Source: a virus
Direction: 5' to 3' (one strand)
Length of the DNA: 64,000 nucleotides
Virus record (IMG/VR): IMGVR_UViG_3300042391_000634
Span: 62,001 to 126,000 of that record
The translations under genes were made by a program, and so were the position numbers. The notes below the pieces were generated by a model. The model was given only the letters and a program-made list of their open reading frames with translations, was not told where the DNA came from and searched no databases. Position 1 is the stretch's first letter. Every line of letters begins with the position of its first letter. Shown here in pieces: positions 241 to 29,677 of the stretch.

Positions 241-1083
241 ATGTTACTAAAATTAGGATCTGAAGGAGAAGACGTTAAAAAACTCCAAATTAAGTTAGGG
301 GTTGACCCAATAGGTAAGTTCGGACCAAAGACTGAATCTGCAGTAAAATCATTTCAAACAAAACATGGAATAACGCCCGACGGTATTGTGGGTGACGGAA
401 CGTGGTCTAAAATGTTCACAGAAGGGACAGTAAGTGCACCTACGGTAATTACAGAACCAGCACCAATTAAGAGTGTGGGTGGTTTAAAATTAGAGGGATT
501 AAGGGGTCATATACCTGATGCGGTAATTGCTCAAATTCCCGATACGGCGGCCAAATTTGAAATCAATACCCCATTAAGACTTGCACATTTCTTGGCTCAA
601 TGTGGTCACGAAAGTGGTGGATTTAGACTTACAAAAGAAAATTTAAATTATTCGGCAAAAGGATTAAACGGGACATTTAAAAAGTATTTCCCAACACTTG
701 AGTCAGCAACACCTTACGAAAGAAAACCAGAAAAGATTGCAAATAAGGTATATGGTGGAAGAATGGGAAATGGTCCTGAATCTTCAGGAGACGGTGCTAA
801 ATTCTGTGGTCGTGGTTATATTCAATTAACAGGTAAAGACAACTACACTGCATTTGGTAAGTCAATCAATGAAGATATGTCGGCCAATCCCGATAAAGTG
901 GCATCATCTTATGCTTTATTATCGGCGGCTTGGTTCTTTAATAAGAACGGATTACATAAAATGGCCGATGGTGGGGCAACTGATGCGGTTGTAACATCTA
1001 TCACCAAACGAGTTAATGGTGGAACAATTGGTTTACCTGACCGTATTAAACACTTTAAAGAATACTATTCATTGTTATCATAA
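241..1083 (+). CDS. Endolysin: peptidoglycan-binding domain plus GH19 chitinase-like lysozyme
   Basis: The 280-residue protein has two domains. Residues about 3-60 match a PG_binding_1 repeat (GSEGEDVKKLQ, GKFGPKTESAVKSFQ, GIVGDGTW). A Pro/Thr linker follows, then a GH19-type lysozyme from about 85 to the end. The HESGGF segment carries the likely general acid Glu124, and CGRGYIQLTGKDNY is the family's substrate-groove motif. It should hydrolyse host peptidoglycan at lysis. There is no signal peptide, so it would need the holin-like protein (38587) or another pore for release. The gene is monocistronic, with a late-type box upstream and a strong terminator downstream. Confidence 0.93.
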   Translation: MLLKLGSEGEDVKKLQIKLGVDPIGKFGPKTESAVKSFQTKHGITPDGIVGDGTWSKMFTEGTVSAPTVITEPAPIKSVGGLKLEGLRGHIPDAVIAQIPDTAAKFEINTPLRLAHFLAQCGHESGGFRLTKENLNYSAKGLNGTFKKYFPTLESATPYERKPEKIANKVYGGRMGNGPESSGDGAKFCGRGYIQLTGKDNYTAFGKSINEDMSANPDKVASSYALLSAAWFFNKNGLHKMADGGATDAVVTSITKRVNGGTIGLPDRIKHFKEYYSLLS

Positions 1084-2823: not shown

Positions 2824-3177
2824 TTATTGGGATATGAACATTTCGGAATTAGTTAATGTTTTTTTTAAGTTAGATACTTTATCCACTAAAGACCTCAATA
2901 ACTCCTCTATCATTAAAATTTCCATTAAAGTATTAACGTTGGTGCTATTAATATCATTAGTTTGACCACCAAATAATGCTAACTTAATAATACCGTCAGT
3001 TTCATTTTTAGATTGTTTCTCTTTTTTTCTTTGGAAATACCTTTTAGAATTTTCCCTTGTACATTCAATACAATAGGGACTATGACCATCCGACTGTTTT
3101 TTGTGCTTGTAAAAATTATCAAGTGGTTTAGGTGTTTTACAACCACAACATCTTTTTTCCTTTTTTTCTTCAGACAT
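2824..3177 (-). CDS. Small zinc-ribbon protein (endonuclease VII N-terminal-like module without nuclease domain)
   Basis: About 117 residues from the ATG at 3177; an upstream in-frame extension to 3231 would cross the promoter and is rejected. Two Cys pairs, CCGC at residues 9-12 and CIEC about 25 residues later, with the intervening KPLDNFYKHKKQSDGHSPY, match the zinc-binding module found at the start of many phage HNH/endonuclease VII-like proteins. No nuclease motif follows; the rest is helical with a coiled-coil-like tail. The -7/-33 sequence upstream is of host Bacteroidota type, suggesting early expression. A nucleic-acid-binding role is likely but unproven. Confidence 0.75.
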   Translation of the reverse strand: MSEEKKEKRCCGCKTPKPLDNFYKHKKQSDGHSPYCIECTRENSKRYFQRKKEKQSKNETDGIIKLALFGGQTNDINSTNVNTLMEILMIEELLRSLVDKVSNLKKTLTNSEMFISQ

Positions 3178-21829: not shown

Positions 21830-23581
21830 ATGAACTTTATAAATTTTGATACAATATACGTTAATGGTTCTTCATTAACTGCAGGTGGTGGTTTATCCGA
21901 TTTTGGGGTTAAACAAGAATATAAAAAACAACATGGGGTTGAGTGGGTTAATGAAAAAGACGTAACATATCCAAAATATATTGCAGACCATTTTGGGGTT
22001 AAATTGGTTCATGATGCGTTTTCAGGTTCTGGAGCACCAAGATTGGTTAGAAGAACATACGAACATATACAAAAAATTGGTTTAGATAATGCAAGAAAAA
22101 CATTGTTTTTATTTGAAATAACGGACCCACCTCACAGAGTTGATTTATATGTGGAAAAGGTAAATGATTACGTTATAACCAATGTAAGATATGATGATGA
22201 TAGAAATATTGGTTCAATATCATCCATACAAATGCAAGACGTTTTAACAAAGGACGGCATAAAATATGACCACGATTACTTTAAAGGTCAAATATCGGAT
22301 GAAGTTAAAGATTACTTATCAAAATATCACAATCCTATAACATACTTTAATAAGTTTGTCGGTGAACTTGTTGGTTTATTTAGTTTTTTAGAAGAAAATA
22401 ATATTGAATATTTTTATTGGTTTGATAATGATTCACTACAAATGCCGTTTAAAGATTTTTATGTTGATTATGATAAAAGAAGAAACTTAAAATTTGGTGG
22501 GTTTAACTGTGTTAACCAATTCTGCACATTCCAAAATATGAGAATATGTGACGAATTAAACGGTGCAAGTGGTGATATGCATCCTGGTTATTTTGGTAAC
22601 AAAAACTTTGCGGAAAAGGTCATTAAAATGATTGAGGGTAAATTAAAACCGACCTTATATGTATTTGGGGATTCCCATACTCAAACATTTGAAAATCATT
22701 TTAAATCGGATTTATCATGGGCTAAACAATATGTAAATCATTTGGGTGAAACACCAAAAAATTATCCTGATTTAATTGCCGAACATTATAATATTGATGT
22801 TGTAAATTATGGTATGGGAGGATGTTCTAATTATACAATATTTGAGTCATTCATAAACAATCATAAAAATATAAAACCAAAAGATTTGGTTGTATTTGGT
22901 TGGACATCAATTAGTAGATTTAGAGTTGCTAATAACGTTAATGACCTTGTCGACATTATTCCGTTTACACCACATCCAAAACAAAATGACGATGTTGAAA
23001 AGAAAACTACGGAACAAATAGCCTACAATAAAGAAACACATTCAGTTTGGTGGACCGAAATTGAAAATTTTGTAAAGATTATTAATCATACATTAAAAAA
23101 TAATAAAGTATTACATTGGACATGGGTTAAACCAGAAAACATTTTACCAACAAGAATATGGTCTCAAGAAAGTATTGATTTAAAACATTCATATATCTTC
23201 AATAATTGGAACGAGTCAGAACCAAAAGTTCAAGAATTAATGAGAAAAAATTGTGATTATTTAGTTAATCTTACTGAAAATATAGATTTAAATGAATTAA
23301 AAACATTTGCGGAAAATGATAAAAGAATAATTTTTTATAACATTGAATTATGTAATGAGGAAAAAAGACAATTTGTTTTTCATAATTTTAAAATAAAACA
23401 TTACCAATCAAGAAACTTTAAAAAAGATTGTTATCAACATTTCATTCCATATAAAAAATATCAAAGCATACTTGAAGAAACCAATGGTGCCGTTGATGAT
23501 CTACACATTGGTAGATTTGGACACGTAGAACTATCGAAAGATTTAATTAAAGAATTTGAAATGAAAAAACCCATCAATTAG
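21830..23581 (+). CDS. Tandem SGNH/GDSL-like hydrolase
   Basis: 583 residues from the ATG at 21830; an in-frame ATG at 21785 lies inside the upstream terminator tail and promoter. Two SGNH-like units are visible. Unit 1: YVNGSSLTAGGG (nucleophile-type block), C-terminal SGDMHPGYFGNKNFAEKV (D-x-H). Unit 2: LYVFGDSHTQTFENHF, GMGGCSNYTIF, then DDLHIGRFGHVELSKDL (D-x-H). The spacing is alike, indicating an internal duplication. Likely an esterase acting on acyl groups of surface glycans or a virion enzyme. The gene ends in a terminator shared with the convergent GIY-YIG gene. Confidence 0.78.
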   Translation: MNFINFDTIYVNGSSLTAGGGLSDFGVKQEYKKQHGVEWVNEKDVTYPKYIADHFGVKLVHDAFSGSGAPRLVRRTYEHIQKIGLDNARKTLFLFEITDPPHRVDLYVEKVNDYVITNVRYDDDRNIGSISSIQMQDVLTKDGIKYDHDYFKGQISDEVKDYLSKYHNPITYFNKFVGELVGLFSFLEENNIEYFYWFDNDSLQMPFKDFYVDYDKRRNLKFGGFNCVNQFCTFQNMRICDELNGASGDMHPGYFGNKNFAEKVIKMIEGKLKPTLYVFGDSHTQTFENHFKSDLSWAKQYVNHLGETPKNYPDLIAEHYNIDVVNYGMGGCSNYTIFESFINNHKNIKPKDLVVFGWTSISRFRVANNVNDLVDIIPFTPHPKQNDDVEKKTTEQIAYNKETHSVWWTEIENFVKIINHTLKNNKVLHWTWVKPENILPTRIWSQESIDLKHSYIFNNWNESEPKVQELMRKNCDYLVNLTENIDLNELKTFAENDKRIIFYNIELCNEEKRQFVFHNFKIKHYQSRNFKKDCYQHFIPYKKYQSILEETNGAVDDLHIGRFGHVELSKDLIKEFEMKKPIN

Positions 23582-23592
23582 ATGGGTTTTTA
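23570..23592. terminator. Bidirectional terminator overlapping both stop codons
   Basis: CCCATC-aatta-GATGGG hairpin flanked by A-run and T-run; it lies within the last codons of both convergent genes. Confidence 0.8.
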
Positions 23593-24239
23593 TTTATTCT
23601 ACCTAATTTCCATCCTGTTGGTATTATCCCCATCATTTTTATTTTTTTATTTTTAATACCATTATTAATCCATTGAGAACCATATTGTGAATTTGATTCG
23701 CCAATACCTTGTCCTTTTTTTGATGATTTTATTTTCTCAATTGTTTCAGGTTTATGTTTTTTACCTTCCCAAGAATAATATTCTTGTATTGGTTTCATTT
23801 CACCCATTTGATATCTTTTTTTATTTGATTCAGATATTTGTGTAGAACGTTTTTTTCGATATTCTTCATCTGTTTTTAATCTTTCACTATGTTTTAACCC
23901 AGCAGCTTGGGAACATTTAAATTGATGTTTTTGATTGTTAAACCCACCTGAACCACCAGGTTTCATATTATAACAATTAACATCGTAAACATATTCTTCG
24001 GTGACAATTTCCTTTTCTCTTTGAATTAAAATTTCTCTATTTTTACACCATTCAATTATTTCAATTTTAAAATTTTCTTCACCATATTTTCTAATCGCAT
24101 ATCTTAAACTTTTACCACTACCTAAATAACCATCTTTTAAATTACTTGTTGAATGCATACCAATATAAAACTTATTGTTAAGTAAATTGGTTGTTTTATA
24201 AATGAAGTGGTATTTTTTTAACTTAATTGAGTTCGACAT
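23574..24239 (-). CDS. Free-standing GIY-YIG homing endonuclease
   Basis: 221 residues. HFIYKTTNLLNNKFYIGMHS carries the GIY-YIG core (I-Y near 13, Y-I-G at 25-27), followed by GYLGSGKSLRYAIRKYGEENF with the catalytic Arg and IVTEEYVYDVNCYNMKPGG with the Glu. The C-terminal half has NUMOD-like DNA-binding repeats (KKHKPETIEKIKSSKKGQG). Encoded next to the tmRNA gene, a likely intrusion site. It has its own late-type box. Confidence 0.9.
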   Translation of the reverse strand: MSNSIKLKKYHFIYKTTNLLNNKFYIGMHSTSNLKDGYLGSGKSLRYAIRKYGEENFKIEIIEWCKNREILIQREKEIVTEEYVYDVNCYNMKPGGSGGFNNQKHQFKCSQAAGLKHSERLKTDEEYRKKRSTQISESNKKRYQMGEMKPIQEYYSWEGKKHKPETIEKIKSSKKGQGIGESNSQYGSQWINNGIKNKKIKMMGIIPTGWKLGRINKNPSN

Positions 24240-24251: not shown

Positions 24252-24276
24252 GTCGAAAACTCAAAAAAGTCGAGGG

Positions 24277-24679
24277 TGGAGACGAGGGGAGTCGAACCCC
24301 TGTCCGATCCGCCGTACCATAAATGGACTACACGTTTATTCAATTAGTTCACAATTGACAAATATTTGGTTCCTATTTTGACATCGTAACCAATAACTGT
24401 GTCGAGTTCACTTTAAGGTAGCCCTCTGAACGAGACCTTTGACACATTTTAAGTGGTATCATCACTGTGGGGACTTCTGTTCCTAGGTTATATGTCCTTC
24501 GACCCGAGTGTAGTTTCGCCTTAGGCTACTGCTACAGTAGAAGTTGCGATTAAACCGCAAGCTTCCATGTTTGTATAAACGTTGTCGTTTAAATTTTACC
24601 ACCATAGATTTAAGTCATAGATGACATCTGACTACGTGCCCATTTACCATACCAACGCCCGTCAATTCCAGGCGTCCCC
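24277..24679 (-). ncRNA. ssrA: Transfer-messenger RNA (tmRNA)
   Basis: About 403 nt, one piece. 5' end GGGGACG pairs with 3' CGTCTCC-A (one G-U), forming the acceptor stem. The D-like segment CTGGAATTGACGGG and the T-arm GGGGTTCGACTCCCC are canonical. CCA is not encoded (CCC follows). The tag frame (24521-24562) reads ACGLIATSTVAVA then TAA, if the resume codon is GCT at 24560-24562. The stop codon follows a perfect CTACTG/CAGTAG hairpin. The tag ends VAVA rather than the usual LAA. Confidence 0.95.
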
Positions 24680-26413: not shown

Positions 26414-26447
26414 AAAACAAATATACAAATTATTTTCGAATATGCAT

Positions 26448-26474
26448 AAAAAAAGTCAGAATTTCTTCTGACTT
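26448..26474 (-). terminator. Rho-independent terminator of the giant RNA
   Basis: GTCAGAA-gaaa-TTCTGAC hairpin followed by T7 on the minus strand. It defines the 3' end of the 26475-27420 RNA region. Confidence 0.88.
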
Positions 26475-27425
26475 AATAGGGCCTTAGGTTTTCATAGAGA
26501 ACAAGGTCATTTACCACCACTTTGTTTTTCTAAACAAAGAAAATAAAACTCTGAGAATACAAGTTTTAACAACCGACTTAGGAACATTATTTGTTTCTTT
26601 CCTTTTCCACGAACTTTTGATTCGTACCGATCAATGACGGTCAATTAGATTAACCAATCCTAAAGTCATCAGATACTCTTTTATTACTTATTACTCAACA
26701 AATCTGCCGACCTGTTTCAACCTTGCGGGTTTAGAGAACTTTCTTAAAAATCATATTGGGATTGAGTCCCTTTATGGCCGTGAACCTCTCACGACTAAGT
26801 AGTCACCTGTCTCCAATGACTGACGAACACTTTTTCAGTTTAATTATGATTTTTATATCGTAATAAAAATTTAGTTTCCGAATTAGGAAAGTAGTGGTTC
26901 GTCACCTAGCCAAGTTATCTTTTGAACAACTCGATACTAAACTACTCTCTGAAGTGTCCCCACCTCCATATTTTTGGTTTCCTTCGAAATTAAACCCTTG
27001 GTAGGATTTAGTCAAGGACACTAACAGCACCACCTGTTTTTTGTCATACCTTCCATCTTACGACGCTACGGTTTTAAGACCACCATTGTATTGAATCACG
27101 CAATTGTATAATCGGATAACTATACTTCTCACAAACTAATTCTATGGATTATTCTTATTGGTGTTCCCACCTCAACCAAACAACTCGGATTGCTTGGTCA
27201 TCTAACCATTTCGCTACGGAGTTACCCTCACTACTTCAGGTCAAATGATATTCCACTTGTCTACTCGAGATCCATTACTGAATCCGCAACTTACCCCAAC
27301 CAAGGGTTTGTCACTTTATCCCACTTTCATGGTTTATTTTATTGACTATAGACGGCCAATATTTTTATTCAAAGAACTTTATCTTTTGGGTTATTCACCC
27401 TTCTTTTACAAAGATAAGAAATGTT
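26448..27425 (-). ncRNA. Giant structured noncoding RNA candidate (about 1 kb; GOLLD/ROOL-like setting)
   Basis: Nearly 1 kb without a credible ORF on either strand, ending in a strong terminator. Many helices are visible on the minus strand: an 11-bp perfect long-range pairing (26992-27002 with 27299-27309); a 7-bp stem (26953-26959 with 27016-27022) that crosses it, giving a pseudoknot; a 9-bp stem (26887-26895 with 26941-26949); a 7-bp hairpin (26520-26526/26533-26539); an 8-bp stem near the 5' end (27379-27386/27410-27417); and a GGTG-GGAA-CACC hairpin with a GNRA loop. Not RNase P, SRP, 6S or intron-like by motif. The class is inferred from size and from location beside phage tRNAs. Confidence 0.7.
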
Positions 27426-27440
27426 TTCTAATATTCCAAA

Positions 27441-28414: not shown

Positions 28415-28452
28415 GATAATAATATACGAAAAATATTCCAATAAACAAAATG

Positions 28453-28524
28453 TATTCTCGACGGGATTCGAACCCGTATTACCTCCGTGAAAGGGAGGTG
28501 ACCTAACCCTTAGTCGACAAGAAC
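28453..28524 (-). tRNA. tRNA-Glu (UUC)
   Basis: Cloverleaf: acceptor GTTCTTG/CGAGAAT with terminal G-U, anticodon stem CCTCC/GGAGG with loop CTTTCAC (anticodon TTC), T-arm ACGGG-TTCGAAT-CCCGT. CCA not encoded. Confidence 0.92.
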
Positions 28525-28529
28525 AAATA

Positions 28530-28765
28530 ATCACTCAAATGGGTATTTGTTATAATATCACAATTGTTGCGCTATACTCTGGTTAATTACTCCGTCTGTA
28601 TCCAACAGCTTTATGTTGGCTTATAATTGGCTACTTTATTATAACTCACATTTTTATTTGTGATTAAAAATCCTCGTCTTTCCGAGGTGCCAAACAACCT
28701 TAGTCTCAATCTACTCTTCCGATTGTTAATCGTGTAGTGGATCCTCCCCATTAGACTTTTGGTTC
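28530..28765 (-). ncRNA. Densely folded spacer between tRNA-Ser and tRNA-Glu
   Basis: No ORF. In 240 nt there are consecutive minus-strand hairpins: CGATT/AATCG nested in CTAC/GTAG and AGTCT/AGACT; CCTCG/CGAGG; TCACA/TGTGA; TTATAAT/ATTATAA; CCAACA/TGTTGG; CAAAT/ATTTG. This is denser than ordinary tRNA spacers. Confidence 0.5.
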
Positions 28766-28766
28766 G

Positions 28767-28853
28767 CGGAAGCGCAGGGATTCAAACCCCGGTTACAGTT
28801 TCCCGTAAAGCAGTTTTCAAGACTGCCGCATTCGATCGCTCTGCCACGCTTCC
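28767..28853 (-). tRNA. tRNA-Ser (UGA)
   Basis: Acceptor GGAAGCG/CGCTTCC, anticodon stem GCAGT/ACTGC with loop CTTGAAA (anticodon TGA), long variable arm around ACGGGAAACTGT, T-arm with TTTGAAT loop. CCA not encoded. Confidence 0.92.
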
Positions 28854-28855
28854 AT

Positions 28856-29050
28856 TGACACCTTTATTTATCCAACTCACAGGTGTCTTAGCTGTCCCCT
28901 TTCGGGTTAGGAATAGACCATTGGGTTACTATATTTACCCCTTATAGTAGACGGTCAATCTAAATAGAACCTTGTCCTATCATCAGTTCCATATGGTCGT
29001 CAAACCACTTCTCTTCATATTGGACATACTATTCGGTGACTAACCGAACC
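28856..29050 (-). ncRNA. Folded spacer between tRNA-Met and tRNA-Ser
   Basis: No ORF. Minus-strand hairpins: TACTATA/TATAGTA; CCC-GAAA-GGG with GNRA loop; and GACACC/GGTGTC directly against the 5' end of tRNA-Ser. Confidence 0.45.
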
Positions 29051-29053
29051 GTG

Positions 29054-29126
29054 TGGACCCGGAGGGGTATGATCCCCCGACCTCGACATTATGAGTGTCT
29101 TGCTCTACCAGCTGAGCTACAAGTCC
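29054..29126 (-). tRNA. tRNA-Met-type (CAU) with altered T-loop
   Basis: Acceptor GGACTTG/CGGGTCC, D-arm GCTCAGCTGGTAGAGC, anticodon stem GACA/TGTC with loop CTCATAA (anticodon CAT), T-arm GGGGG/CCCTC. The T-loop is ATCATAC: A54 and T58 replace the near-universal T54 and A58, a swapped pair. Could be elongator Met or lysidine-modified Ile. Confidence 0.85.
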
Positions 29127-29129
29127 TAT

Positions 29130-29515
29130 TAGTCTTTTCCTTACCTCTTAATAATCACATTGCCATCCCGGTGTTACTGCCGGGTGCTTACCACTTGCGT
29201 GGAGTGATTATCACATTAATGTTTGATTCCAATCCAACTTAAATTGCACCATCCGATTCATTGATCTGGTTGACAAAGTCCTCGATTGGATTAGTCTCAA
29301 AAAGTTACAGGTTTTTTGTACCATCTATGTACATCATGACCGAAGTTTGGTTGGATTTACATCACGTCTCAGCAAACTTTACTCGGTGGTTACATTTTCG
29401 TATTGGGGTAATTATTCCCGACTTATAGTAACTCTACCCTCACCGCCCTACCTCGCGAGTCAGACGGATCTTTTGGGATTCATAGACAGTGGGGTTACAC
29501 CACCGTCGTCACCTG
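29130..29515 (-). ncRNA. Structured RNA spacer with three-way junction
   Basis: About 390 nt without ORF. At 29151-29211 an 8-bp stem (ATAATCAC/GTGATTAT) encloses two hairpins: CCAC-GCAA-GTGG with a GNRA loop (in RNA sense) and CCCGG/CCGGG. Further 5', AAGTTTG/CAAACTT plus ACCG/CGGT (29339-29349 with 29373-29387) forms an 11-bp bulged helix; TGTAC/GTACA and TCCAATC/GATTGGA are also present. Confidence 0.55.
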
Positions 29516-29518
29516 TTG

Positions 29519-29590
29519 AGCCTCCACTCGGAATCGAACCAAGTTATCATGATTACAAGTCATGTGCATCGCCATCAATGCTTTAGAGGC
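29519..29590 (-). tRNA. tRNA-Thr (UGU)
   Basis: Acceptor GCCTCTA/TGGAGGC, D-stem GCAT/ATGC, anticodon stem CATGA/TCATG with loop CTTGTAA (anticodon TGT), T-arm CTTGG-TTCGATT-CCGAG. CCA not encoded. First tRNA of the cluster. Confidence 0.92.
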
Positions 29591-29677
29591 TTATTTTATA
29601 TCAATATGTCAAAGAACCACTTATTTCACAAAGATAATTAATAAATTCGGATATACAAAATTATTTTTAATCTTTTA

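Follow-up and report, generated by a model that had tools for sequence, protein, structure and literature searches.

A GOLLD RNA of a large phage with a putative rRNA-like gene start and a probable role related to translation

What kind of molecule is encoded by about 1 kb of phage DNA that lies between tRNA and tmRNA genes and lacks a convincing open reading frame? This question was raised by positions 26448–27425 of a 64,000-nt window (the whole stretch of DNA analysed here), which corresponds to bases 62001–126000 of a 335,630-bp IMG/VR virus record. Judged from the letters alone, the initial annotation had described a giant structured noncoding RNA resembling GOLLD and ROOL RNAs, either a member of these families or a new class. 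Taken together, we consider it likely that the locus encodes a GOLLD RNA of a large Bacteroidota phage, which would be expressed in the manner of rRNA, assemble into a cage and play a translation-related role.

Family membership and structure of the RNA

Comparison with the Rfam covariance models by cmscan, a check suggested at the outset, revealed a match to GOLLD (RF02032) on the minus strand from 26949 to 26548 (E = 7e-82). This match covers the complete model (1–416) with a score of 290.1 bits, the gathering score being 150 bits. The RNA at 26446–27404 (minus strand) is thus a member of the existing GOLLD family and not the new class offered as an alternative. ROOL, OLE, HEARO, intron or ribozyme families gave no Rfam match between 26400 and 27480, neither at the gathering score nor at E ≤ 5. 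Further parts of the initial description were confirmed: the longest overlapping reading frames comprise 67 aa (plus strand) and 45 aa (minus strand) and are not convincing, a terminator scan located the strong terminator as an intrinsic one at 26474–26453 followed by a T run on the minus strand, and tRNA and tmRNA genes are present near GOLLD. The predicted transcript (about 27404–26446) nearly coincides with the proposed interval. Heavy structure is also apparent, as the minus strand has a minimum free energy of −213 kcal/mol (z = −3.4; none of 20 shuffled sequences reached this value), compared to z = −1.9 for folding of the plus strand.

The RF02032 model with its 416 positions represents the 3′ domain of GOLLD only. 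Full-length relatives were present in the phage records LR756502 (642 kb) and LR745206 (635 kb), and search patterns built either from the alignment of these records or solely from the 3′ domain led to many IMG/VR loci; a whole-RNA profile recognised 140 distinct full-length viral GOLLD copies. The earliest DNA patterns, taken from the 3′ end, hit mostly by chance (GOLLD in 4 of 44 records tested). Among the 92 matching loci that the 3′-domain pattern initially retrieved, 76 contain the entire RNA, so that in this collection the 3′ domain usually occurs together with this 5′ domain. The remaining loci are cut by contig ends except for L396 and L398, in which the GOLLD 3′ domain is joined to a different 5′ part. 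The closest copies to the window GOLLD are those of L082 (95%) and L165 (85%). Scans of genome contigs revealed no bacterial GOLLD, and one bacterial candidate (L487) was rejected as a chance match.

Covariation was deduced from 74 non-redundant sequences, which yielded 238 pairs in about 50 helices, and evaluated with 24 held-out sequences, each <90% identical to any training row, using partners slid by 1–3 as controls; here and below, cells and counts tally sequences and not independent events, except for counts made on a tree. For both domains, 97.4% of the held-out cells were paired compared to 38–45% in the slid controls, and double changes were found in 149 of the 238 pairs (39–51 in the controls). 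The 5′ domain alone was likewise paired to 97.4% in the 24 held-out sequences (37–43% when slid), with a double change in 77 of its 113 consensus pairs. The window sequence itself forms 96% of the consensus pairs. Compensatory changes, named initially as the evidence to look for, thus exist in both domains among held-out homologues. The 5′ half is a covarying domain outside the Rfam model that is conserved to the same degree as the 3′ half, and the 140 homologues provide a well-supported structure for this missing part.

An 11-bp long-range helix (26992–27002/27299–27309), which had been emphasised in the initial annotation, is located in the 5′ half (27359–26950) where no Rfam family applies. 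It is indeed perfect in the window, but homologues form on average only 4.5 of its 11 pairs (3.2–5.7 in slid controls), and it clashes with covarying hairpins at 27309–27290 and 27013–26988. Being private to the window sequence and devoid of covariation, it was rejected as a real element; the assignment to GOLLD was right, yet it had been reached partly via a helix that homologues do not back.

The window RNA shares the complete 3′-domain match and the two-domain 5′/3′ plan with the known RF02032 members env-38 and the L. brevis prophage GOLLD, and its 814 nt are similar to the 833 nt of known GOLLD. The hallmarks of GOLLD, namely a length of about 800 nt, a 5′ domain that is separate and less conserved, and a linker that varies, are all present, as are the A+U-rich nature of this linker, the B7 pseudoknot, the palindromic B8 loop and the phage setting near tRNAs. 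An increase in expression during lysis counts as a further trait of the family. In contrast to known GOLLD RNAs, the window RNA has a Bacteroidota-type promoter, a boxA-like leader, a jumbo-size phage as its carrier and a linker free of tRNA. ROOL is also a large phage RNA encoded near tRNAs, with a solved member that forms a cage, but besides lacking an Rfam match here it is unrelated to the window RNA in sequence and fold. The features of the locus are collected in Table 1.

Table 1. Features of the GOLLD locus and its surroundings (positions in the window)
Feature	Position	Strand	Evidence or remark
tmRNA gene, 1.9 kb downstream of GOLLD	24274–24679	−	RF00023, 91 bits; ARAGORN
Intrinsic terminator AAGTCAGAAGAAATTCTGACTT + T run	26446–26474	−	Terminator scan, sequence
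GOLLD structured core, 814 nt	26546–27359	−	Full-length-homologue HMM, 697 bits; 140 distinct full-length relatives
3′ domain (RF02032)	26548–26949	−	cmscan, 290.1 bits
B7, L20 strand	26664–26673	−	Pairs with 26821–26812
Hairpin taken as L21a, palindromic loop dinucleotide (B8 self-kissing loop)	26718–26732	−	95/98 palindromic
B7, 5′ strand (J13/15)	26812–26821	−	Partner 26673–26664 (L20); 10/10 pairs in window
A+U-rich variable linker	26839–26872	−	Enclosed by the cage in PMC12286853
Staple 1, linker strand UUCGG	26878–26882	−	Partner of loop 27188–27184
5′ domain, no Rfam model	26950–27359	−	Kept in relatives; 113 consensus pairs
Staple 1, loop CCGAG of 5′-domain hairpin	27184–27188	−	Pairs with linker 26882–26878
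Staple 2, loop UUGGUU of 5′-domain hairpin	27298–27303	−	Pairs with linker AACUAA, about 26877–26872
boxA-like GTTCTTTGA in transcribed leader	27369–27377	−	Between promoter and RNA
Bacteroidota-type promoter TTTG-N20-TATCTTTG	27409–27440	−	Transcription start predicted near 27404
tRNA operon Thr-Met-Ser-Glu, upstream of GOLLD	28452–29590	−	No further tRNA found in the 335,630-bp record
Leader of tRNA operon	29609–29659	−	Promoter TTTG-N19-TATCTTTG (29659–29629), boxA-like GTTCTTTGA (29617–29609)

Gene start and tRNA neighbourhood

Upstream of GOLLD, the arrangement TTG-N18..22-TAnnTTTG was found in 110 of 135 homologues compared to 0.9 in shuffled sequences; TAnnTTTG is the form of the Bacteroidota housekeeping promoter (PMC9723704). 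The promoter of the window is kept in L082, and its −7 box in both L082 and L165, though the flanks diverge. Judging from this promoter, the host of the phage probably belongs to the Bacteroidota. The boxA-like motif GTTCTTTGA is exact in 105 of the 135 GOLLD leaders (0.05 when shuffled), and a looser form occurs in 130; all 94 leaders with both signals carry it downstream of the promoter. At 80% clustering it is present in 27 of 38 leaders, with GTTCTTTAA in eight of the other 11, while the background elsewhere in GOLLD loci is 0.0066 per 250 nt. The motif is located outside the structured core at a variable distance (10–130 nt), and its spacing from the promoter varies too.

A promoter followed by GTTCTTTGA was also observed in the 16S leaders of Prevotella, Persicobacter and Segatella, and the motif recurs in the 16S leader of Hymenobacter; it is exact in four of the seven Bacteroidota 16S leaders compared, the other three rRNA leaders having variants alone. 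These operons resemble that of GOLLD in that TTG-N-TAnnTTTG and then GTTCTTTGA stand ahead of a long structured RNA, and differ in that rRNA instead of GOLLD follows the leader. In rRNA, boxA is the NusB–NusE site and is tied to antitermination and correct rRNA maturation (PMC4807359). From sequence and layout, on which the boxA assignment is based, we infer that the GOLLD leader borrows the host rRNA boxA system. A search for literature on boxA in Bacteroidota yielded nothing useful. Acinetobacter-phage GOLLDs showed no boxA in the stretches scanned, hence boxA is no family-wide need.

The only other convincing boxA-like copy in the window belongs to the tRNA operon, whose promoter is perfect and whose leader reads GTTCTTTGACATATTGA, with 17 bases identical to the Persicobacter 16S–23S spacer copy. 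A third match in the window (31740) falls within an ORF; two TAnnTTTG...GTTCTTTGA sites elsewhere in the record, L504 and L507, also overlap with ORFs and appear fortuitous. In several GOLLD relatives, boxA-like sites lie 4–22 nt before tRNAs or tmRNA.

All four tRNA genes of the record are situated upstream of GOLLD at distances of ≤2.3 kb, and the proximity of phage GOLLD to tRNAs holds for the family. The tRNA density around the 140 homologues was 2.92 per 10 kb compared to 0.22 in 257 control loci (13-fold), which were chance pattern matches from the same collection, unmatched for phage size, so that part of this excess may reflect large phages. The 140 GOLLD loci contained 23 tmRNAs, the controls none. 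In 45 of 79 loci the tRNA nearest to GOLLD is Met (CAU), in many cases with the hallmarks of an initiator, i.e. a mismatch at 1:72 and GGCTCATAACC. Of the 72 tRNAs located ≤500 nt from GOLLD, 24 were initiator-like, compared to one of 342 farther away (Fisher p 3e-19), and this enrichment persisted with one locus per 85% cluster (13 of 37 near versus 1 of 184, p 1e-10); because the comparison is made within loci, it is free of phage-size bias. In the window, a profile detected no initiator tRNA, and the Met tRNA there is elongator-like.

In 18 loci a tRNA starts 7–23 nt past the GOLLD 3′ end, and this end would then be generated by RNase P cleavage as well. Among the 29 loci with an upstream tRNA, the order tRNA – boxA – GOLLD is found in 25 and resembles the 16S–23S spacer of rRNA operons. 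Six loci (L413, L224, L438, L227, L194, L206) contain odd tRNA-Met-like genes with unusual arms 8–14 nt after GOLLD; these may represent either initiator tRNAs that have diverged or tRNA-like elements.

The rRNA-operon-like gene start and the frequent adjacency of relatives to start-tRNA genes look new, as rRNA-style signals and an initiator-tRNA link were not found in the GOLLD literature searched, which lay outside the original GOLLD description. The boxA-like leader and the initiator-tRNA link constitute specific, testable ties of GOLLD to the host machinery for rRNA synthesis and translation.

The tag encoded by the phage tmRNA is ATSTVAVA according to ARAGORN, with the unusual ending VAVA; comparison with L082 suggests that the tag may be longer, DNVYTNMEACGLIATSTVAVA. 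A SegE-like GIY-YIG endonuclease gene (23577–24239, minus strand) adjoins the tmRNA gene and scores 24.5 bits against a Pfam cut-off of 25 bits.

Quaternary contacts and possible function

According to the published cryo-EM study, env-38 GOLLD forms a 14-mer hollow cage in which L20 is linked through B7 to J13/15 of a different chain, while the B8 loop pairs with its own copy on another chain; the cage is large and empty and encloses the A+U-rich linker (PMC12286853). Among the homologues, B7 is paired in 97% of cells with 55 different strand sequences. The loop dinucleotide of B8 is GC in 77, CG in 16 and AU in 2 of 98 sequences, and a palindrome that is kept while its letters switch is the pattern expected of self-pairing. 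We assigned L20 and L21a according to their positions in the Rfam structure and to the alternation of GC and CG described in that study. By analogy, the conservation of B7 and B8 supports a putative cage of the same kind for the window RNA. The linker comprises 24–52 nt in 92 homologues (82% A+T), and in none of the 140 homologues does it contain a tRNA.

Two additional pairings connect loops of the 5′ domain with the linker. Staple 1 is paired to 99%, with 11 different loop strings and, counted on the tree, about 15 events of double change. The linker strand of staple 2 is directly downstream of that of staple 1; with a longest complementary run of 5.47 compared to 4.85 ± 0.10 for shuffled partners, its signal is weaker. 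Covariation fits intra-chain as well as inter-chain pairing, and both staples may be either. In its text, the cryo-EM paper gives a single A-minor interaction as the only contact of a 5′ region with the 3′ region of a different chain and does not mention the staples, which may already be contained in its figure (PMC12286853).

These observations suggest the following course of events. Host RNA polymerase would initiate at the housekeeping promoter near 27404, and the boxA-like signal of the leader may then recruit the host rRNA antitermination and folding factors, NusB–NusE and partners, enabling an untranslated structured RNA of about 0.95 kb to be produced at a high rate and to fold without premature termination, until the intrinsic terminator ends the transcript. 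On folding, the 5′ domain would form a cap and the 3′ domain a ring, held together in part by the pairing of the two 5′-domain loops with the start of the linker, and, as judged from the env-38 homologue, copies of the RNA would assemble into a hollow cage that encloses the linker. Within the infected cell this cage would most likely serve translation, either by holding or protecting tRNA, initiator tRNA above all, or by engaging ribosomes.

The rRNA-like leader, the company of tRNA and tmRNA genes and the initiator-tRNA link are the reasons why we think that GOLLD function is probably translation-related, and a reported GOLLD ribosome pull-down (cited in PMC12286853) agrees with such a role. 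A direct role in translation is conceivable, and we put it forward tentatively. The L. brevis prophage GOLLD is reported to be dispensable for phage production (cited in PMC7567579), which suggests that the role is conditional, e.g. countering host defence. One may further speculate, though we regard this as doubtful, that GOLLD is a mock ribosomal RNA: its operon would copy the host rRNA plan of host promoter, tRNA including the initiator, boxA and giant folded RNA, and its cage would use the rRNA folding machinery and act on the translation apparatus. In that case it might, for example, capture ribosomal particles or initiator tRNA as the phage takes over the cell.

A rival role for the cage would be to enclose or bind phage tRNAs and thereby protect them from host defences that cut tRNA, such as anticodon nucleases and VapC-type nucleases, the latter acting on initiator tRNA. 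The initiator-like tRNAs enriched beside GOLLD in a tRNA-rich setting, the 18 tRNAs that begin 7–23 nt past its 3′ end, the large and empty cage (PMC12286853) and the dispensability in the laboratory (cited in PMC7567579) are consistent with this idea; nevertheless, gene linkage is not binding, the linker is devoid of tRNA in all 140 homologues and the window GOLLD has no initiator tRNA, and we consider it unlikely. Alternatively, the boxA-bearing transcripts could titrate NusB–NusE off host rRNA operons, thereby shutting down ribosome synthesis and freeing polymerase, with the cage as a mainly stabilising scaffold. Strong transcription of lambda nutL RNA is reported to sequester Nus factors and thereby reduce the expression of rRNA (PMC4807359), and GOLLD has the boxA-like motif in its leader. 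This motif, however, is placed outside the structured core, 10–130 nt away, as for a cis signal, and is also found ahead of tRNA and tmRNA genes, while a decoy could do without quaternary contacts and a pair of conserved domains, which makes such a function quite improbable.

A symmetric RNA assembly (PMC12286853) encoded by a phage also brings to mind a ring-shaped structural or motor part of the virion, comparable to the phi29 packaging RNA. The neighbours in the window, however, are tRNA, tmRNA and miscellaneous genes without packaging genes, and the host-type promoter and boxA-like leader are similar to those of stable RNA genes; this role therefore has very little probability. That the stretch is a chance structure or a decaying, non-functional intergenic region can practically be dismissed: single-sequence folding is merely moderately unusual (z = −3.4), but compensatory changes in held-out homologues refute it, and the promoter and boxA-like motif are conserved.

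Two further observations concern the loci with a different 5′ part. A Pistol self-cleaving ribozyme (837–912, minus strand) is located about 360 nt upstream of the GOLLD 3′ domain of L398. The region upstream of the 3′ domain of L396 shares a 50-bp similarity with positions 3001–3050 of Cellulophaga phage phi14:2 (L496), in which no GOLLD was found.

Shorter GOLLD RNAs of about 700 nt (207–219 bits) were detected within tRNA arrays of the Acinetobacter phages YMC13/03/R2096, Ab15, vB_AciJM_313 and AM24 (L492–L495), which carry no GOLLD annotation. With vB_AciJM_313, which infects Acinetobacter johnsonii, such a relative is available in a cultured system. In three of these four phages a tRNA starts within about 10 nt of the GOLLD end.
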